Below are positions 10,444-58,566 of a stretch of DNA of 64,000 nt, one piece after another (positions within the stretch are counted from its first letter, which is position 1; the number at the start of each line of letters is the position of its first letter). The notes beneath the pieces are model-generated. The model did not search any database. It was not told where the DNA came from and saw only the letters and a list, made by a program, of their open reading frames with translations. The stretch comes from a virus. The stretch lies in the IMG/VR virus record IMGVR_UViG_3300027906_000003, positions 59,821-123,820 of that record; one strand, 5' to 3'. Position numbers and translations under genes: made by a program.

Positions 10444-11985
10444 ATGGAATTATTCGGGTTTGAAATCACTCGTAAAAGAGACGAGTTAAGAGCAACAGAG
10501 GTTGATAAAAAAGCAATCTCTTTTGTGCCTCCAGTCGATGATGATGGCACACCAGTTATACAATCACAACCAGGTGGTTTTATTACAGGTGGTGCATATG
10601 GGTCATACATCGATATGGAAGGCGGTATTAAGAATGAGGCAGAACTCATTCGTAGATACCGTGAGATATCCTTAATACCTGAATGTGATTCAGCAATAGA
10701 GGATATCGTTAATGAGTGTATCACATCTGACACTTCGGATAGGATAGTTTCACTCGACCTCAGAGATGTAAAGCTCTCTGATAGCATCAAAGATAAGGTG
10801 CAAGACGAGTTTTATCACATCCTAAACATCATGAGATTCAATCAGAACTCTCATGAATTATTCAGAAAATGGTACATCGATGGTAGAGTCTACTTCCATA
10901 AGGTCGTGGATTCGAAACGACCTAAGGCAGGTATCGTTGACATCAGAAATATTGACCCTATAAAGATTAAGAAAGTTCGTAATATTGAGAAAGACAGAGA
11001 CAATAAGACGAATGTTGAAAAGATTACAAAGATGGAAGAGTTCTATCTTTTCAACGATAGAGGTTTTGATAAGAGTGGTTCTGGAGAAGGAAACACTGTT
11101 AAAATTGCACCAGAGGCAGTATGTTATACAACTTCTGGTCTACTAGACTACACTAAAAATGTTGTAGTTGGTTATCTTCATAAAGCAATGAAGACTGCAA
11201 ATCAACTATCTATGATAGAAGATGCACTTGTTATCTATAGGATATCAAGAGCACCAGAAAGAAGAATCTTCTACATCGATGTTGGTAACTTGCCAAAAGC
11301 AAAGGCAGAACAATACTTATCAGAAGTTATGAACAAGTATAGAAATAAACTTGTTTATAACGCACAGACAGGTGAAATCAAAGATGATAGAAAACACATG
11401 TCTATGATGGAAGATTTTTGGTTACCAAGAAGAGAGGGTGGAAGAGGAACAGAGATATCTACACTCCCAGGTGGTCAGAACTTAGATGATATTGCAGATA
11501 TAGAATACTTCAAAAAGAAACTATATCGTGCATTAAATGTGCCTATATCTCGTATGGAATCAGATAATGGTTTCAATATGGGTAAGTCATCTGAGATTAC
11601 GAGAGATGAATTGAAGTTTAATAAATTTACTAATAGACTTCAAAAGAAATTTGCAAGAGTATTCAACGATGTGTTGAGAACTCAGTTGATTCTGAAAGAG
11701 ATTGTTTCTGCAGAAGAGTTTGATAAAATTAAAGATTTTATTCAATACGATTGGGCAACAGACAACCACTTTACAGAATTAAAAGATGCAGAGATTATAC
11801 GAGAAAGAATGGACACACTTTCACAAGTAAGTGAGTATGTCGGCAAATATTACTCGAATGAGTATATTAGAAAGTATATCCTGAATCAAACGGAAGAGGA
11901 TATCAAAATCATCGATGCTCAGATAGAGCAAGAGGGTGGTTCTGGTGACGATAGTGAAAACGAAGATGACTTCGGAGGATTTTAA
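10444..11985 (+). CDS. 20: Portal protein gp20
   Basis: A 513-residue homologue of T4 gp20 (524 residues), the dodecameric head vertex protein that nucleates prohead assembly and is the DNA entry channel. Conserved segments include LIRRYREISLIPECDSAIEDIVNE, the RKWYIDGRVYFHKV strand, the IDPIKIKKVR turn, GYLHKAMKTANQLSMIEDALVIYR and FWLPRREGGRGTEISTLPGGQNL. Each is quoted in parts only. The C-terminus is acidic. The ATG lies 5 nt after a late box with no room for a Shine-Dalgarno. Confidence 0.97.
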   Translation: MELFGFEITRKRDELRATEVDKKAISFVPPVDDDGTPVIQSQPGGFITGGAYGSYIDMEGGIKNEAELIRRYREISLIPECDSAIEDIVNECITSDTSDRIVSLDLRDVKLSDSIKDKVQDEFYHILNIMRFNQNSHELFRKWYIDGRVYFHKVVDSKRPKAGIVDIRNIDPIKIKKVRNIEKDRDNKTNVEKITKMEEFYLFNDRGFDKSGSGEGNTVKIAPEAVCYTTSGLLDYTKNVVVGYLHKAMKTANQLSMIEDALVIYRISRAPERRIFYIDVGNLPKAKAEQYLSEVMNKYRNKLVYNAQTGEIKDDRKHMSMMEDFWLPRREGGRGTEISTLPGGQNLDDIADIEYFKKKLYRALNVPISRMESDNGFNMGKSSEITRDELKFNKFTNRLQKKFARVFNDVLRTQLILKEIVSAEEFDKIKDFIQYDWATDNHFTELKDAEIIRERMDTLSQVSEYVGKYYSNEYIRKYILNQTEEDIKIIDAQIEQEGGSGDDSENEDDFGGF

Positions 11986-37346: not shown

Positions 37347-38071
37347 AAAAATATCTATTAGCGCTAAGTATATTTCTTTCTACACCTTTTCTGTTTGCCG
37401 CTGCGGACGATGATAACGAAATTAACATAACACAAACTGGTGATACTTTAACATTATATATTGACCAGATTGGTTATGGAAACAAAATGGGATTGGATAA
37501 CTTTGATAGTAGTTCAAGTGCCATGCCTATCACAGGTACTTCGTTGACTTTTAACATCGACCAGCTGGGTAACGAGAACTTACTCTATGGTAAGGTCACA
37601 GCAGATTCTTCATCTTACACTTTAGAGTGGAATGGTGATAGTAATGTTTGGGACTGGATGATAGGTGAAACAGGTTCATCAGATACTACAAATATGTTAG
37701 TAGACATAACTGGTGACTCTAATACAATGGACTTTGACCAAGGTTCAGTTGCTCAAGCAGAGAGGTTAGATTTCGATTTAATAGTAATTGGTAGCTCCAA
37801 TGTTTTTGATGTAGATGTTGAATCAGATGATGCAACCTGGGATTTTGATATAACAGGTGCTTCAAACAACATCAACACATTGCAAAAAGATGGTGCTTAT
37901 CATAACATCACTTTTGAATTGACTGGTGATTCTGCAGATGTAGACATCAATCAGTTAAGTGGAACATGCCCACAAGGTGTTTCTACTTGCAAAGGTCAGA
38001 TTACATTGGACATTACAAGTGATAACTCAACTATCCAAATCAATCAGAAAGACACATCTAACGATTCTTAG
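37343..38071 (+). CDS. Curlin-like (CsgA/CsgB-type) secreted protein
   Basis: A 242-residue protein with a clean signal peptide (MKKYLLALSIFLSTPFLFA) and a repetitive beta-rich mature part rich in Asn, Gln, Asp and Thr. Repeats carry the curlin-like spacing of N-x-I-x-Q-x-G-x (EINITQTG, LYIDQIGYGN, FNIDQLGNEN, VDINQLSG, IQINQKD). Two Cys lie near the C-terminus. It overlaps csgG by 4 bases (ATGA), so the pore and its likely cargo are coupled. Confidence 0.8.
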   Translation: MKKYLLALSIFLSTPFLFAAADDDNEINITQTGDTLTLYIDQIGYGNKMGLDNFDSSSSAMPITGTSLTFNIDQLGNENLLYGKVTADSSSYTLEWNGDSNVWDWMIGETGSSDTTNMLVDITGDSNTMDFDQGSVAQAERLDFDLIVIGSSNVFDVDVESDDATWDFDITGASNNINTLQKDGAYHNITFELTGDSADVDINQLSGTCPQGVSTCKGQITLDITSDNSTIQINQKDTSNDS

Positions 38072-39188
38072 TATCTTACTCTTCATGGGGTCTGTTCAGG
38101 CAGACTCCATCGGAGATATAGTTGAATCAACAGGTATTGGTTCTGTTCTTAGAAACAATACCGAAATAGGCAACGATGTTGGAACAGGAATTGTTCTCTA
38201 TGATGAGGCAATAACAGGAAACGGCAGAATGCTTATTGAGTTCCTTGATGAAGAGGAACTTGCACTTACAGAACACACACAAGTATACATAGACGAAGTA
38301 TACTACGACCCAAATCCAAGTTTATCCAAGATGTCTTTAAGAATGGTTCAAGGCACCGCAAGATTTGCTTCTGGAAATGGACAAAGAATTAAAAAGTCTA
38401 ACATAGACATACGAACACCTACGGCACAAATAGCAATCCGTGGAACAGATTTCACAACAACCATTGACGAACTCGGAAGGAGTTTGATAGTTTTACTTCC
38501 TGATAGATTCGGAGATTCATCAGGAGAGATAACAGTTATAAATGATGGTGGAGAAATAGTCTTAGATAAGGCATTTCAAGCAACAATGGTTACAAGTTTA
38601 GATAGTCCTCCAACTCCACCAGTCACAATAACAAATTTAACAGTTAATCAAATAGATAATATGTTCATCGTTGCACCACCACCTGCAGTAGAACAAGCAG
38701 TTGAGGAACAGGCAAGAGATGATAACAACGAAGACCAAGGAATACTAGATGTAGATTTCTTAGAGTTCAATGAACTAGAAAAGGACTATGATGATTATGC
38801 AAATGACCCAGACTATGATGCAAGATATAGTTCTATTGATATTGATTTCTTAGATGCAGACTTTCTAGTGGACATGTTAGATGTCGTTGAAGAATTAATT
38901 AAAACTACAAAAGATTTAGGAGATAGACAAGCATCATCAGGTGGTGGTGCTGGAAGTTCAGATTTTAATATAAAAGGTGCCTCTTTTGGTAAGAATACAG
39001 ACTCACAATACAACATTTTTGTTGAAGATGGTGGTCTTGTATTCTATAGAGAGGTTGAAGGAAAGATAAGATTGGTATTTCAAGCAGGTGCCTCAGTAAG
39101 ATTAGACACTAGAGTTCCAACTTATGAGGGTGTTATAACAGTAAATGGTGGTGATGAAATCTTCATTTACATCAACCAATCTAACTAA
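38019..39188 (+). CDS. FecR-domain protein with signal peptide
   Basis: About 389 residues. A FecR domain occupies roughly residues 30-160: GIVLYDEAITGNGRMLIEFLDEEELALTEHTQVYID..., LRMVQGTARFASGN, IDIRTPTAQIAIRGTDFTT (parts quoted). An acidic linker and a Gly-rich C-terminal domain follow. I favour GTG 38019, which gives a signal sequence (KSIRKTH, then LTILSILLFMGSVQA); an ATG at 37959 is the alternative. It overlaps the curlin-like gene. FecR proteins transmit periplasmic signals, and FecR genes often neighbour CHASE2 cyclases in bacteria. Confidence 0.8.
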   Translation: MITQLSKSIRKTHLTILSILLFMGSVQADSIGDIVESTGIGSVLRNNTEIGNDVGTGIVLYDEAITGNGRMLIEFLDEEELALTEHTQVYIDEVYYDPNPSLSKMSLRMVQGTARFASGNGQRIKKSNIDIRTPTAQIAIRGTDFTTTIDELGRSLIVLLPDRFGDSSGEITVINDGGEIVLDKAFQATMVTSLDSPPTPPVTITNLTVNQIDNMFIVAPPPAVEQAVEEQARDDNNEDQGILDVDFLEFNELEKDYDDYANDPDYDARYSSIDIDFLDADFLVDMLDVVEELIKTTKDLGDRQASSGGGAGSSDFNIKGASFGKNTDSQYNIFVEDGGLVFYREVEGKIRLVFQAGASVRLDTRVPTYEGVITVNGGDEIFIYINQSN

Positions 39189-40488: not shown

Positions 40489-40625
40489 GTTATCCCCAAA
40501 GAGTCGTTGATATGGTCAACGAATACAGAAGAAATGAACGAAAGAAATTTTGGTCAAAAACTTGGTCAATATTTTTAGCCTGTGTTTTAATAGGTGGTGC
40601 TTTATATCTCTTCTTCTATGTTTAG
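40485..40625 (+). CDS. Small membrane protein, 46 residues
   Basis: MSYPQRVVDMVNEYRRNERK, then a membrane segment (residues about 28-45, SIFLACVLIGGALYLFFYV). It overlaps the previous gene by 4 bases and the cyclase ATG by 8. Co-translation is likely. Confidence 0.6.
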   Translation: MSYPQRVVDMVNEYRRNERKKFWSKTWSIFLACVLIGGALYLFFYV

Positions 40626-42465
40626 TTGGAAATCAGTTTTAATATCCATATCTTTACTTGTTGGTTTGAAGATATGGTCACCATACCTTGTAGAAAATAT
40701 ACAATGGTCATGGTTCGATGTATTACACCAACAGAAAGGAGAATATTATGTCAATGACATCGTTCTTGTCGACATTGATGAGAAAACTTTGGAAGTTCTT
40801 GGTCAGTATCCATTACCTCGCAGTGATTATAGTAAACTCATGCTTGATAGTCATTATAGCAATACTCATGTTTTTAGTATGGTCTTTAGTGAACCTGACC
40901 GAACCCCTAACGAAGACTTATTATTCGCAGAAGGACTTGTAAATAGACTTTCGATACTAAGCAGCGCGCCTAGCCCACAAAAAGATTCAGGAGTTGCACC
41001 TTTTGTTGGAACTTCCACACTAGGAGGTGCAGAGGCAAAAGACTTTATATGGAATTATTCGGGGATAGTATCACCCATTCCCATACTTAGAGATAATACT
41101 TACGGTGTTGGGGTAACCTCCTCAACTCCACCGATTACGGGAACACCAAACTTTGACGGAACAGTTCGTTCTGCACCACTATTAGTCTATGCAAATGACC
41201 AAGTATATCCTTCAGTTGCACTAGAAACTCTTCGTGCATTCTTAGACCAGAAATCATATCAGTTAAAAGTCACACCTGAAATGGGTGTAGAGTGGGTCAG
41301 AATGGGTAGAAATCCACCCATATCTACAACACCTACAGGTGATGTTATGATATCATATTGGAATACATTTCAAAGAATATCTGCAGTTGATTTACCTGAA
41401 TCAAACTTAGAGGGTAAGATTCTTATATGGGGTCTTACTGCAGAGGGTCTTAATAATCCAGTTTCAACCCCAATGGGTGTAATGTATCCTCACGAAGTTC
41501 AAGCAAACCTAATCCAAACCGTCTTGCAAGACATTCGAATACAACAATCCTACTATCTTGAACAGCTCGAGATTGTTCTTCTGGTGTCAGTTCTCTTATT
41601 GATACTTCTGATGGTTTATAAACTTCCCACAGTTCTTGCGGGGATAATGAGTCTAAGTATTGTTGCACTTCAGCTGGGTGGGGGTTTCTATTTCTGGACT
41701 TCTCAACTCGTTCTTTTCGATACCTTTTTTTCATCGGTTAGCTCCTTGTTGATATTCGGACATGCTTCGTTTAACAAATACTATATCACATACCAAGAGA
41801 AACAACAAATCAAAAAGCAGTTCCAAAAATATTTATCTCCTGATATGATTGAAGAACTACAAAAAGACCCATCAAAATTGAGACTTGGTGGAGATAGAAG
41901 AGAGATGTCCTTCATGTTTATGGACATAATCGGATTTACCCCCATAAGCGAACACTATATGAAAGAAGATAATCCTGAGGGATTAGTAGAACTGATAAAC
42001 AAGTTCTTGGACATGCAAACCAAAATAATACTAAATAATAAAGGAACCATAGATAAGTATATGGGCGATTGTATCATGAGCTTTTGGAATGCGCCTCTTG
42101 AATGTAAAGACCACGCCGACCTTGCTGTAAAATCTGCCCTTGAAGTGCTTGAAGCAACGGAGAAATTAAATGAAGAACTTGAACCTCTTAACCTGCCTCC
42201 TATTAATGTGGGCATCGGCATCAGCACAGGCGAATGTATTGTCGGAAACATGGGTTCCGAACTTAGATTTGACTATTCCGTCATCGGAGATGCAGTCAAC
42301 CTCGGTGCTAGACTCGAAGGCCAAACAAGAAATTATCCTGGGGTTAACTTGTTGTTATCGGAAGGAACTTATAGACAATGTAAGAAAGGAGCATTCTCAG
42401 AAGTTGATAGAATCAAGGTTAAGGGAAAGGAAATACCAGTCACTATCTACACTCCGATTACATGA
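40618..42465 (+). CDS. CHASE2-domain class III adenylate/guanylate cyclase
   Basis: A 615-residue membrane receptor cyclase. An N-terminal membrane segment is followed by a periplasmic CHASE2 region (YYVNDIVLVDIDEKTLEVLGQYPLPRSDYSKL, in parts; later DGTVRSAPLL, YPSVALETLR). About three membrane segments follow (near residues 315-380), then the catalytic domain: FMFMDIIGFT (metal Asp436), KYMGDCIMSFWNAP (metal Asp484), RFDYSVIGDAVNLGARLEG (with the transition-state Asn/Arg). All catalytic residues are present, so activity is expected. The substrate is probably ATP, from family patterns; this is not certain. Confidence 0.92.
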   Translation: MFSWKSVLISISLLVGLKIWSPYLVENIQWSWFDVLHQQKGEYYVNDIVLVDIDEKTLEVLGQYPLPRSDYSKLMLDSHYSNTHVFSMVFSEPDRTPNEDLLFAEGLVNRLSILSSAPSPQKDSGVAPFVGTSTLGGAEAKDFIWNYSGIVSPIPILRDNTYGVGVTSSTPPITGTPNFDGTVRSAPLLVYANDQVYPSVALETLRAFLDQKSYQLKVTPEMGVEWVRMGRNPPISTTPTGDVMISYWNTFQRISAVDLPESNLEGKILIWGLTAEGLNNPVSTPMGVMYPHEVQANLIQTVLQDIRIQQSYYLEQLEIVLLVSVLLLILLMVYKLPTVLAGIMSLSIVALQLGGGFYFWTSQLVLFDTFFSSVSSLLIFGHASFNKYYITYQEKQQIKKQFQKYLSPDMIEELQKDPSKLRLGGDRREMSFMFMDIIGFTPISEHYMKEDNPEGLVELINKFLDMQTKIILNNKGTIDKYMGDCIMSFWNAPLECKDHADLAVKSALEVLEATEKLNEELEPLNLPPINVGIGISTGECIVGNMGSELRFDYSVIGDAVNLGARLEGQTRNYPGVNLLLSEGTYRQCKKGAFSEVDRIKVKGKEIPVTIYTPIT

Positions 42466-51501: not shown

Positions 51502-52834
51502 ACCTTTCACAAGAAAGGTTCTACCTTTCTTAAAGTCAGAGTATTTCACCGAGAGTGACGAGAAGATAGTATTCAAAGAAATACAAGATTATTTCTTAAA
51601 GTATACTAAACCACCTACTACGGAAGCACTTCTCATAAACCTAGACAACAATACTTCTATTAATGAGAATGAATTGAAAATGTCTAAAACCGTAGTAGGT
51701 CAATTCGACAAAGAATCAACTCCAATGGATTGGTTAGTCGAAGAGACCGAAAAGTGGTGCAAAGATAGAGCAATCTATATTGCAGTCATGGATTCTATTG
51801 AGGTTATCGATAAGAAATCTCAAAGGTCAACTGGTGAAATACCTGAACTTTTAAAAGATGCTTTGTCAGTCTCATTTGACACAAATATTGGTCATGACCA
51901 GATTGAAGATGCAGATGATAGATTTGAATTCTATCATACGGAAGAAGAGAAGATTCCGTTTGACTTAGAATACTTCAACAAGATTACAAAGGGTGGTTTA
52001 CCAAACAAAACACTTAATATCTGCCTTGCAGGAACAGGTGTTGGTAAATCATTATTCATGTGTCATATGGCAGCTGCTGGTTTGATGATGAATAAGAATA
52101 TATTATACATCACACTTGAAATGTCAGAAGAAAGAATTGCAGAAAGAATCGATGCAAATGTTCTAAACATTCCAATGAAAGAACTTCCTGATTTATCCAA
52201 GAAGATGTTTTCTAAAAAGGTTGAGAAGATTAGTGCAAAGACAAAAGGTAAATTAATCATTAAAGAATATCCAACTGCATCAGCTCATGTTGGACATTTC
52301 AGACATCTTTTACAAGAACTAGAAATCAAAAAAGATTTCAGACCTGATTTGATATTCATTGATTATCTAAACATATGTGCATCACATAGAATCAGACCTG
52401 GTTCTGGTGCAAACTCTTATACATTAGTTAAGAGTATTGCAGAAGAACTTCGTGGTCTTGCAGTAGAATTTGATGTGCCTATTATGAGTGCAACTCAAAC
52501 GACCAGAAGTGGTTATGGTTCCACAGATATTGGACTCGAAGACACTTCTGAATCTTTTGGTTTGCCTGCAACTGCAGATATGATGTTTGCACTGATTACA
52601 TCCGAAGAACTTGAAGAGTTAGACCAAATGGTCGTAAAACAATTGAAGAATAGATACAACGACCCTACAGTATTTAAAAGATTTGTAATTGGTGTTGATA
52701 GAAGTCGTATGAAGTTATACGATTGTGAACAAGAGGCACAAGAAGAACTGGTTGATAGTGCCATAGAGGGTGATGATACACCAGTATTTGATAGAAACCG
52801 AGGTGCAGAGAAATTCCAAGACTTTAATGTTTGA
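51449..52834 (+). CDS. 41: Replicative DNA helicase gp41
   Basis: A 461-residue DnaB-type hexameric helicase homologous to T4 gp41 (475 residues). N-terminal helical domain [22 protein letters not shown]; RecA-like core with Walker [13 protein letters not shown], the [20 protein letters not shown] block, Walker [13 protein letters not shown] and [11 protein letters not shown] as motif H3. The gene overlaps uvsX by 53 bases and the next gene starts inside its last codons. Confidence 0.96.
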
Positions 52835-54113
52835 TGATAAATTAATACAAAAACAATACGAAGAGTATAAAGAAAACTATGTAGAACCTGATGCAATGGG
52901 TAGGTCTTTGATGAGAGATAGAATTACAGAAGATTTATCTTTTGTATCTCAAATGTCAGTAGAAGAATACACTTTATATCTAAAGTATCAGGAGATACAT
53001 CGTAAATATCCTACACATGAGATTGGAACTTTGTTTGGTTCTGAAAAACAATTTGTAGATGAGAAACATATCAAACTGATTGATGAAGTTAAGAACAACA
53101 TATGGATTCCTAATTCATATGAAGACTATGAGAAATTAGAACCAGAATTAATTTACACATCTATGACATCTGATGATAGAGAATCAGCAGGTTCATGGTC
53201 AGAAATCTGGAATTGTATCAGAACATTTACATCTACTATGAAGAACTCTTCTAATATTGGTAGAAATTTACATTATGTTGTCAGAGATAAAGTCACAGGT
53301 AAATATCTTGGAGTTATTTGTATTACAGGTGATTTCATCGACTTAACTCCTCGTGATAATTGGATTGGTTGGGATAGAGAATACAAAACTAATAGTGGTA
53401 TTCTAAATCACTCATGTATTGGTTCTACGATTGTGCCATTGCAACCACTAGGATTTAACTATACAGGTGGAAAACTACTTGCACTTTTATGTCTATCAGA
53501 TGATATACAGAAACAGTGGGAAGAAAACTATGGTAATAAATTAGTGAGTGTGACTACTACATCATTATATGGTAAATCCAAAACAGGTGGTTTATCACAA
53601 TATGATAGACTCAAACATTGGAAGAAATGTGGATACTCAAATGGTTCTATGACATATGAATTGACCAAAGATACTGAACGAGAAATGTTGAAATATGGTG
53701 AGAAGAATTACAACGATAGATACTTCTCATTATATGTTGCAACAAGAGAAAATGGTCAACCTTGGAAAAGAGACCATAGAAATAGATTTAGAAGCTTTTT
53801 ATTCCCCAAACTAGAGATACCTAAGAACATAATTCGTTCAGACCATCAAAGAGGTATCTATTGGTCTGCCTTATACGATAACTCCAGAGAGTTTCTAAGA
53901 GGTGAGATTACAGAAGACCAACTAGTTCGTTCACAAGACTTCTCTACAGAGGCACTTTCCACACTATGGAAAGAAAAGTATGCAGGTAAGAGAATCAATA
54001 ACCTTATGAATGCAGAGAGACAAAGACTCGATGATACTCTCTTTTATGACGATATTGCATTCATGTCATGGGATGAAACTAAGGCAAAATACCTTACACA
54101 AGTAGGCAGATAA
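52827..54113 (+). CDS. DUF4338/DruA-like protein (copy 2)
   Basis: A 428-residue paralogue of the protein at 44061. Shared blocks are YLGVICITGDFIDLTPRDNWIGWDRE (part), STIVPLQPLGFNYTGGKLLALLCLSDDI (part) and TTTSLYGKSKTGGLSQYDRLKHW. The C-terminal part (from about 290) differs. Start ATG 52827 lies inside the gp41 end. Its placement directly after gp41 hints at a link to DNA replication or modification. A palindrome-class early promoter follows its stop. Confidence 0.75.
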   Translation: MFDDKLIQKQYEEYKENYVEPDAMGRSLMRDRITEDLSFVSQMSVEEYTLYLKYQEIHRKYPTHEIGTLFGSEKQFVDEKHIKLIDEVKNNIWIPNSYEDYEKLEPELIYTSMTSDDRESAGSWSEIWNCIRTFTSTMKNSSNIGRNLHYVVRDKVTGKYLGVICITGDFIDLTPRDNWIGWDREYKTNSGILNHSCIGSTIVPLQPLGFNYTGGKLLALLCLSDDIQKQWEENYGNKLVSVTTTSLYGKSKTGGLSQYDRLKHWKKCGYSNGSMTYELTKDTEREMLKYGEKNYNDRYFSLYVATRENGQPWKRDHRNRFRSFLFPKLEIPKNIIRSDHQRGIYWSALYDNSREFLRGEITEDQLVRSQDFSTEALSTLWKEKYAGKRINNLMNAERQRLDDTLFYDDIAFMSWDETKAKYLTQVGR

Positions 54114-56595: not shown

Positions 56596-56772
56596 ATGAC
56601 TAAGAATTTAAAAAGTGAAGAGGTAATTGATATGATTTCAAAGAAGATAGCTTTGAAAAAAGAATTACGCATGGCTAAAAAAGATTCTGACGATAAACAA
56701 ATTAGTAATATCACCAAAAAAATCTCTAAAATAGAGACTAAATTACATTCCACTCCGCTCTCAAAAACCTAA
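56596..56772 (+). CDS. Small basic helical protein, 58 residues
   Basis: MTKNLKSEEVIDMISKKIAL, continuing as a Lys-rich helix (KKELRMAKKDSDDKQISN) to 58 residues. Heptad spacing of Ile/Leu suggests a coiled coil; the excess of Lys could favour nucleic-acid binding. A late box lies upstream. Family not recognised. Confidence 0.55.
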   Translation: MTKNLKSEEVIDMISKKIALKKELRMAKKDSDDKQISNITKKISKIETKLHSTPLSKT

Positions 56773-56775
56773 ATA
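56769..56775 (+). promoter_or_regulatory. Late promoter box variant (CTAAATA)
   Basis: CTAAATA overlapping the stop of the preceding ORF and ending exactly 5 nt before the ATG at 56781. Confidence 0.55.
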
Positions 56776-56780
56776 CTAAC

Positions 56781-56834
56781 ATGGAAACCAATTCATGTAA
56801 ATGTTGTAAGTGCTGTAGTTGCACTTGCTGTTAG
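56781..56834 (+). CDS. Cys-rich micropeptide, 17 residues
   Basis: METNSCKCCKCCSCTCC: eight of seventeen residues are Cys, in CxCC, CxxCC and CxC arrangements like metallothionein clusters. A late box variant ends exactly 5 nt before the ATG, the leaderless spacing used by eight other genes here. Its TAG overlaps the AGGAG that serves the next gene. It would bind Cu(I), Zn(II) or other thiophilic metals, or a metal cluster; this is inference from composition. Confidence 0.55.
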   Translation: METNSCKCCKCCSCTCC

Positions 56835-56844
56835 GAGATTAACA

Positions 56845-57297
56845 ATGGGCGTATACCAAGACGAAATTACAAACAATATTCAACCTTTAATAGATAAATT
56901 AACAGGTGATATTGCAAATCTTAATACTATATTAACCTTTTTACAGGCACAGGCATCTGATATAACAACTGCAGACTTTAAAACTGCATGTGCAAATCAC
57001 TCTTCTGATTTAGTTAAATCATATGGAACTGCAACTGACGATGCAGCTACAAACGCAAATGTTCAAGCCGATATAGAACTAGAGATTGATAGAATTCAAG
57101 TTATGTTAGGAACACATTCTTCTTTGACTGCATATCAGGACTTCAAGGTTAAAGGAGATGCTTCATCAAATTCTTGGAGAACAGGTAGTTTACAAGGTGA
57201 TTTAGATGCACTAAACGCCAAGAAAACTGCATGGACAGCTAAAGAATCAAATCCACATGATACAACTTCTTACACAGGCATAGTTCAACCTGCTTAA
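56845..57297 (+). CDS. Putative virion structural protein, 150 residues
   Basis: A low-charge protein rich in Ala, Thr, Asp and Ser, with a long helix (NIQPLIDKLTGDIANLNTILTFLQ) and a repeat-like Ala/Thr region. This composition resembles small virion decoration proteins. AGGAG (56833-56837) precedes ATG 56845. Family not recognised. Confidence 0.55.
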   Translation: MGVYQDEITNNIQPLIDKLTGDIANLNTILTFLQAQASDITTADFKTACANHSSDLVKSYGTATDDAATNANVQADIELEIDRIQVMLGTHSSLTAYQDFKVKGDASSNSWRTGSLQGDLDALNAKKTAWTAKESNPHDTTSYTGIVQPA

Positions 57298-57360: not shown

Positions 57361-58566
57361 ATGGGCGCAAAAAACCTACACTTAGAACATTTAGAAGACG
57401 AAATCATTAATCAAGGGATTGATGGAGGTCGTGGTGCAATTAACTTTCTTCAAGGTCTAAGAGATATGTTGAAAGGTAATTCAAACAGTTCTGTTAACAT
57501 GACTGTTAAATGGGATGGAGCTCCTGCAATCTTTTGTGGAAAACATCCAGAAACAAATCAATTCTTTGTTGCAAAGAAATCACTGTTCAATAAAACAGGT
57601 CCTATGTTCTATACCTCAGAACAAGAAATCAAAGAGGCCTCTGAACTCTCAGGTCAATTACAAGAGAAGTTTCTAACATCATTTAAATATCTATCTAAAT
57701 TATCTTGGAATACAATCATGCAAGGTGACTTAATGTATACTAATGATAAGAAAATGCAAAAGATAGATGGTAAATCTTATGTGACCTTTCAACCAAATAC
57801 AATTCTATATGCAGTTGATGTTAAATCAGACTTAGGTAAACAAATTGCAAACTCTAAAATGGGAATAGTTTTCCATACCACATATTCAGGTGGAACTATA
57901 GAAGATTTATCTGCAAGTTTTGGTGCCAAAACATCGAGTCTTGGAAGTTCATCAGATGTATGGGTTGATGATGCAACATATAAAGATGTATCTGGAAACT
58001 CCACAATGACTGCTAAAGAAACACTTAAACTTACACAAGTATTGTCTGCAACAGGTAAAGCATTTCATGGAATCACACGAAAAGATTTACAGAAGTTTAT
58101 GCAACTACAGGCAACGATACAACAGAAAGGTGCAGGTGCATCATATAAGACATATTGTAATTCACAAATCAGAGGTGGTTCTTACAAACCAACATATGCA
58201 GGTTATATGAAACACTTTGAGAACTATTGGAGAGATAAAGTTGTTGGTGCAGTTAAAATGGAAAAGACAAAGGCCATCAAACGAGAGATTGGTGAACAGT
58301 TATATGCAGAACTTCGTGCATTAAACAAGTTCATAACCAATCTAACAAAGTTCATGGAGAATCTAGTCATTGCAAAACAGATTATCATCGTTGCACTAAA
58401 TAGAGTAAAGAGTATAGGAACATTTAAGAAGACTGCAACAGGTTTTGAAGTGGTAAATCCAGAAGGATATGTTGCAATCGACAAAACAGGAAGTGCCGTC
58501 AAATTAGTAGATAGAATGGAGTTTGCATTCAATAACTTCACAGCACAAAAGAATTGGGATAAGTAA
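57361..58566 (+). CDS. Ligase-type covalent nucleotidyltransferase-like protein
   Basis: A 401-residue protein with the motifs of the DNA/RNA ligase superfamily: motif I VKWDGAPAIFCG (KxDG, Lys50), an acidic strand IMQGDLMYTNDK (motif III-like), and NPEGYVAIDKTGSAVKLVDRMEF, which has the EGxV of motif IV and KLV of motif V. It lacks an obvious OB domain. The conserved LEHLEDEIINQG start is typical of homologues in T4-like marine phages (DUF6267-like). Whether it seals nucleic acids or adenylylates another target is unknown. It overlaps the next start by one base. Confidence 0.75.
   Translation: MGAKNLHLEHLEDEIINQGIDGGRGAINFLQGLRDMLKGNSNSSVNMTVKWDGAPAIFCGKHPETNQFFVAKKSLFNKTGPMFYTSEQEIKEASELSGQLQEKFLTSFKYLSKLSWNTIMQGDLMYTNDKKMQKIDGKSYVTFQPNTILYAVDVKSDLGKQIANSKMGIVFHTTYSGGTIEDLSASFGAKTSSLGSSSDVWVDDATYKDVSGNSTMTAKETLKLTQVLSATGKAFHGITRKDLQKFMQLQATIQQKGAGASYKTYCNSQIRGGSYKPTYAGYMKHFENYWRDKVVGAVKMEKTKAIKREIGEQLYAELRALNKFITNLTKFMENLVIAKQIIIVALNRVKSIGTFKKTATGFEVVNPEGYVAIDKTGSAVKLVDRMEFAFNNFTAQKNWDK

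Follow-up and report, generated by a model that had tools for sequence, protein, structure and literature searches.

A candidate metallothionein-like micro-gene of 13-17 codons in marine phages and SAR86 bacteria

The 64,000-nucleotide stretch of viral DNA analysed here (the window) belongs to a virus record of 123.8 kb, and its translations read as those of a T4-like myovirus, with terminase, sheath, portal, capsid and replication proteins. The window also encodes a protein with CHASE2 (3e-31) and adenylate/guanylate cyclase (3e-17) matches at 40594-42465, unexpected in a T4-like phage, and a FecR-domain protein at 37959-39188. The product of 44061-45191 matches DruA of Druantia (6e-12), so that a name known from a defence system is met here inside a phage genome; similar motifs were seen by eye at 52770-54113.

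The subject of this report is a micro-ORF squeezed between two ordinary phage genes (Table 1), whose translation, METNSCKCCKCCSCTCC, read directly from the window sequence, contains 8 cysteines in 17 residues. The first-pass annotation had placed such a cysteine-rich micropeptide at 56769-56834; the peptide and its stop codon are found exactly as described, at 56781-56834, inside a range that also covers most of the late promoter box. Its further observations on the architecture of the locus are borne out as well, as the micro-ORF is overlapped by nothing more than short antisense ORFs of 28 and 27 aa, and its stop codon runs into the ribosome-binding site of the following gene. The cysteine density, which had been judged very unlikely by chance, is indeed exceptional: the 8 Cys codons make up the best 12-codon stretch of the window, where 60 Markov shuffles of the 64 kb reached only 3-5. 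The Cys core is found once in the whole virus record.

Table 1. Features of the micro-ORF locus in window coordinates
Feature	Position	Strand	Remarks
Preceding gene, 58 aa	56596..56772	+	its stop codon falls inside the late box
Late promoter box CCTAAATA	56768..56775	+	5-nt spacer to ATG, leaderless spacing
Micro-ORF METNSCKCCKCCSCTCC with stop	56781..56834	+	ATG at 56781, stop TAG 56832-56834
Codons ETNS	56784..56795	+	mostly read from the old leader (AAAACC in relatives L002-L015, aligned with GAAACC here)
36-nt Cys core CKCCKCCSCTCC	56796..56831	+	common to other phages and SAR86; absent from relatives
RNA hairpin GTAAGTGC-N7-GCACTTGC	56806..56828	+	within the core; fold z = -2.35
Shine-Dalgarno AGGAG of 56845 gene	56833..56837	+	overlaps micro-ORF stop TAG
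Next gene, 150 aa	56845..57297	+	no PHROG match; anchor used for the homologous locus

The late box stands at the leaderless spacing that the first-pass annotation had attributed to it. Among the 52 plus-strand NNTAAATA boxes of the window, 10 are followed by an ATG after a spacer of 5 nt, and every other spacer occurs no more than 3 times, so that the micro-ORF uses the dominant arrangement and shares it with nine other box-ATG pairs, in the manner of a T4-type late leaderless gene. Two further boxes of the sequence CCTAAATA have the identical spacing, and the starts preceded in this way include those of long ORFs (513, 494, 314 and 195 codons; long-ORF starts at 10444, 24489, 59858 and 61866 are among them). 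The other NNTAAATA boxes with an ATG 5 nt on lie at 1785, 10431, 24476, 35328, 45387, 49234, 49725, 59845 and 61853. This phage seems to make general use of leaderless late genes.

The homologous locus, defined by the presence of the protein encoded at 56845, was available in 15 contigs (L001-L015). One of these (L001) matches the window almost perfectly, with 1 mismatch in 5738 bases. The other 14 retain the late box CCTAAATA and the homologue of the 56845 gene, together with the preceding gene where the contig extends that far, and in none of them is there a micro-ORF or a run of Cys codons at this place; the distance from the box to the start of the gene is about 30 nt, against 69 nt in the window, with about 39 nt missing. 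The closest empty-site relatives (L002 and L003) are about 91% identical to the window on both flanks. Because the relatives' leader CTAGTATTAAAACC aligns with CTAACATGGAAACC of the window, the 36-nt Cys core is the extra piece, and the first residues of the peptide are read from the old leader. In L002 the empty-site leader carries a small inverted repeat, GTATTA-AAACC-TAATAC, directly after the late box. The conserved cysteine-rich micro-ORF that had been proposed ahead of homologues of the 56845 gene is therefore not found, 14 of 15 loci being empty. The pattern named as refuting the proposal, frameshifts or loss of cysteines between intact flanks, is not seen either: the relatives are without the whole ORF, and no broken copy exists among the 15 loci. 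Judged by these alignments, the locus shows a gain or a clean loss of the micro-ORF and not its decay. Since 14 of the 15 relatives do without it at the window's own locus, the micro-ORF is dispensable.

Elsewhere the core is far from unique. The pattern CKCCKCC-x-CTCC occurs in eight viral contigs, at varied places and with synonymous differences, and in all eight the core forms its own tiny ORF straight after an ATG. A polar-spacer pattern with a nearby ATG and stop, M-x(0-4)-C[KNRS]CC[KERS]CC[NSTDKHA]C[TSED]CC-x(0-2)-stop, finds genes of 13-17 codons in at least 48 viral contigs and at least 10 neighbourhoods, counts that are lower bounds, as members with TCN serine spacers exist and are missed by it; it was used in place of the loosest CxCC pattern, which, among the matches listed, returned mostly antisense or repeat noise. 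The family core can be written CxCCxCCxCxCC. Among 34 distinct viral cores, TGT and TGC are mixed at all 8 Cys positions, and the residues at the four spacers differ but are polar (with one Ala exception). With 8 Cys in 13-17 residues and polar spacers, the peptides have the small size, very high Cys content and scarcity of hydrophobic residues of metallothioneins; every member keeps its ATG, stop and frame. Many viral members have their own Shine-Dalgarno sequence and are separated from their neighbours by a few bases (often 3-15 nt to the next start), and most lie inside operons and not at the operon head. The neighbouring genes, with functions assigned by eye, include DUF6267/phrog_455-like, cytidyltransferase, exonuclease-like and HesB/IscA-like proteins, small basic proteins of other phages, and a GTDEVRVSY protein resembling the C-terminus of window gene 59858; apart from the HesB/IscA-like neighbours in two contigs, no obvious metal gene was recognised by eye in the phage neighbourhoods. 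The genes downstream of the micro-gene in L018 and L023, and the window gene at 58566, start with MRNFKEFRED, MISFRDFQEG and MKKLSSFLREG, which by eye resemble T4 capsid-targeting N-termini, and the micro-gene may often lie among internal proteins packaged in the head. In isolate phages, blastn gave short matches only, the two best marine ones inside long genes.

As the search patterns themselves demand cysteines, Cys conservation was examined separately through two neighbouring genes used as anchors. The exonuclease anchor yielded six loci with an intact micro-ORF and two (L278 and L279) that are empty even though their anchor proteins are 95% and 93% identical; empty and filled sites read gaaataaaataaggtaggttATG and gaaataaaataagg[aggcacataacATG...TAGataaa]ttATG, respectively. 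At the cytidyltransferase anchor, 22 loci comprise nine with an 8-Cys ORF, three with MCKCESCKCDPCTCSN, ten that are empty and none that is broken. The 8 distinct 8-Cys cores at these anchors were extracted with the Cys pattern, and the full upstream sequences at both anchors were read and contain no degraded copies. Across these cores the Cys codons are polymorphic at the third position in 6 of 8 columns and at the first or second position in 0 of 16 (Fisher p=2e-4), while all four spacers are variable. Read from their sequences, the anchored loci are all-or-none cassettes in which change at Cys codons is synonymous only. T4-type phages have mobile promoter and stem-loop cassettes between genes, and the present segments resemble these in being very small and inserted between genes; they differ in that what moves is coding sequence, a micro-gene whose peptide is conserved.

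The sequence MCKCESCKCDPCTCSN, which replaces the 8-Cys ORF at the cytidyltransferase locus in L383-L385, is a 6-Cys micro-ORF of CxC type with its own Shine-Dalgarno sequence. This second type, M-CKC[KEN]xCKC[NDK]PCxC with a short tail, occurs in about 50 viral contigs (L452-L505, e.g. L476, L493 and L504), was not found in SAR86, and is possibly a second family of phage micro-metallothioneins. The swap of a 6-Cys CxC peptide into the same locus supports a chemical role over one specific to codons or RNA.

The 8-Cys family is also present in bacteria. A first search of bacterial genome contigs gave four matches, two in SAR86 and two in Porticoccaceae. Across the SAR86 order the motif is carried by 70 of 203 genomes (69 in single copy, one with two) and absent from the other 133, with no match to the reversed control; it occurs in 5 of 112 Porticoccaceae genomes and in none of 397 genomes of other Pseudomonadota, which gave one reversed-control match. 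The SAR86 form is M-C[DEK]CC[DSK]CC[ENQTK]C[TSDA]CC with a short tail, often SK. In a simple scan of 32 SAR86 copies, 22 carry a TATAAT-like hexamer ending 6 nt upstream of the ATG, and most of the remainder have TATATT or TATAGT at that place, so that the SAR86 copies, too, look leaderless.

It is in SAR86, and not in the phages or the Porticoccaceae, that a genomic link to metal homeostasis is seen; no clear metal context was apparent at the Porticoccaceae loci. MerC (PF03203) is encoded by 165 of the 203 SAR86 genomes, including some that lack the motif. By comparison of coordinates, it lies on the same strand and within 3.5 kb of the micro-gene in at least 34 of the 70 motif-bearing genomes, where chance would give about 1% (one locus in about 1.1 Mb), the genomes being related and non-independent and the arrangements differing among them. 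The micro-gene stands directly before MerC, directly after it, or 1.0, 1.5 or 2.2 kb away. In twenty MerC regions of motif-less SAR86 genomes, no Cys-rich micro-ORF of this kind is present; the one ORF listed there, with scattered cysteines, is unrelated and of antisense type. At one SAR86 locus (L146) the micro-gene is found between the MerC gene and a divergent block encoding an HMA protein (8e-7), a MerT-like protein (0.0055, below the cut-off), a Trns_repr_metal repressor (6e-27) and a 215-aa protein without a Pfam match. The repressor, whose best NCBIfam match is RicR (1.6e-20, below the model cut-off), carries C-x24-H-x3-C, the copper triad of CsoR, and an operator-like palindrome, ATACCC-ATA-AGGGGTAT, precedes the micro-gene's ATG by about 90 nt. 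At three other SAR86 loci (L257, L258 and L259) the genes immediately after the micro-gene encode a beta-helix protein that matches NosD (1e-8), a periplasmic copper-binding family, and a cytochrome-like protein.

Because the family moves between marine phages and adjoins metal-handling genes in SAR86, its product is probably a metal-binding, metallothionein-like peptide. We consider it likely that the micro-ORF of the window is a functional, horizontally mobile micro-gene for such a peptide, directed at soft metals and probably at Cu(I). The Cys core stands behind a late promoter in a lineage whose relatives have the site empty, and the 17-codon ORF that results begins at the canonical leaderless position; a leaderless mRNA would give rise to the peptide late in infection. 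Its eight thiolates, a number that in metallothioneins could accommodate about four Cu(I) or two to three divalent ions, are predicted to bind soft metal as a small cluster, most likely Cu(I), perhaps Zn(II) or Cd(II). In this way the phage peptide would buffer metal in the infected cell, and the homologous SAR86 peptide would do likewise within its MerC/CsoR/HMA neighbourhood. The gene call, the leaderless late promoter and the metallothionein-like character first suggested for the micropeptide are strongly and independently supported by the conserved family, by the synonymous-only change at Cys codons and by the SAR86 neighbours.

The main rival, to which we assign a small probability, is a regulatory leader peptide, in which the reading of Cys codons senses charged tRNA-Cys, redox state or copper and tunes the downstream gene. 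The window ORF has the look of one, being Cys-rich, leaderless, first in its transcript and overlapping the next ribosome site with its stop, and mycobacteria offer a precedent in leaderless Cys-rich uORFs, for which such a role has been proposed and which precede genes of cysteine metabolism or hypothetical genes at fixed loci (PMC4633059); for CruR, a copper-responsive uORF, it has been shown (PMC9426467). The phage and SAR86 micro-genes share with the mycobacterial uORFs the leaderless start, the very short length and the clustered Cys codons, but they occur next to changing neighbours and preserve the peptide pattern as a whole. A Cys-codon attenuator, which would be expected ahead of Cys or sulfur genes, is difficult to reconcile with unrelated downstream genes that differ across at least 10 neighbourhoods, with gaps of 3-15 nt that leave no room for it in many phages, and with the position of most phage copies within operons; moreover, the spacers remain polar, a 6-Cys CxC peptide substitutes at one locus, and the empty-site relatives retain both downstream gene and promoter. 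Similarly improbable, in our estimation, is a Cys-rich peptide with another job, be it the buffering of thiol redox state or the binding of a host or phage protein, or the removal of metal from one. A peptide of 17 residues with eight thiols would suit redox buffering too, and the differing neighbours would fit a general chemical role, but the strict CxCCxCCxCxCC geometry, the polar spacers and the MerC/CsoR/HMA neighbours in SAR86 point to metal.

There are two further explanations. Selection might act on an RNA hairpin formed by the 5' leader of the 56845 message, with the Cys reading as its by-product: an 8-pair stem stands directly before the Shine-Dalgarno sequence, and the whole leader folds better than shuffled versions (z = -2.35). 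However, other cores of the family take up differing shapes with energies of 0 to -9.3 kcal/mol, where the window has -11.5, and Cys codons change synonymously while ATG, stop and frame are kept everywhere. With a fold unshared by the other family cores, this very unlikely explanation is largely refuted, and the window hairpin is probably a by-product of the codons. A chance ORF would account for the absence from 14 of 15 relatives, but is rejected, with hardly any probability left to it, by shuffles that never exceed 5 Cys codons in 12 and by a conserved family with clean reversed-pattern controls.

Among the known systems close to the metallothionein-like reading is MymT, a mycobacterial copper metallothionein of about 50 residues under the CsoR-like repressor RicR. 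In the SAR86 locus L146, too, a copper repressor of the CsoR family is encoded close to a Cys-rich peptide, a likeness of gene neighbourhood; the micro-genes differ from MymT in encoding 13-17 residues, in having no sequence relation to it and, in phages, in a promoter that is a late phage box. The copper metallothionein of the Neurospora crassa type, at 26 residues, was once considered the shortest (PMC4755600). The family is like it in being very short and Cys-dense, with polar spacers (K/S/N/G-type) and no other domain, and unlike it in having half its length (13-17), CC instead of CxC pairs, prokaryotic and viral carriers and no detectable sequence relation. The copper-responsive CruR (DUF2946) uORF, also a small Cys-bearing ORF linked to copper genes, needs a CXXC and a C-terminal RAPP arrest motif (PMC9426467); the window peptide and the tabulated viral and SAR86 peptides have no Pro, no RAPP and no CXXC with two non-Cys residues.

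Pfam and PDB, searched up to E = 10, contain no metallothionein model or other family that the peptide matches, a comparison of little power at such length; NCBIfam gave nothing for a query lengthened by five lysines, an uninformative result. No paper on such peptides was found in a literature search that covered few subscription papers; within the same coverage, CKCCKCC appeared in a sturgeon skin paper only, and SAR86 and metallothionein were never paired. The Cys-rich micro-gene family has thus apparently not been described before. To our knowledge, 13-17 codons is shorter than any known metallothionein gene.

With somewhat better than even chances, we see in these genes a mobile cassette of 13-17 codons common to marine phages and SAR86 metal homeostasis, which the phages would express late to keep soft metal, namely copper, under control as the host dies, and of which other phages would have an independently spaced 6-Cys version. 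If this is true, the window encodes a virus-borne metal buffer, a metallothionein-like gene far too small for gene callers to see, that has spread through marine phages and SAR86, an abundant bacterial group of surface seawater. The search class it defines, Cys-dense micro-ORFs between phage genes, is missed by annotation pipelines. Selection would then maintain and move genes of 13 codons, whose peptides are small enough for synthesis and direct testing, and phage infection would be tied to the handling of copper or zinc in the ocean.
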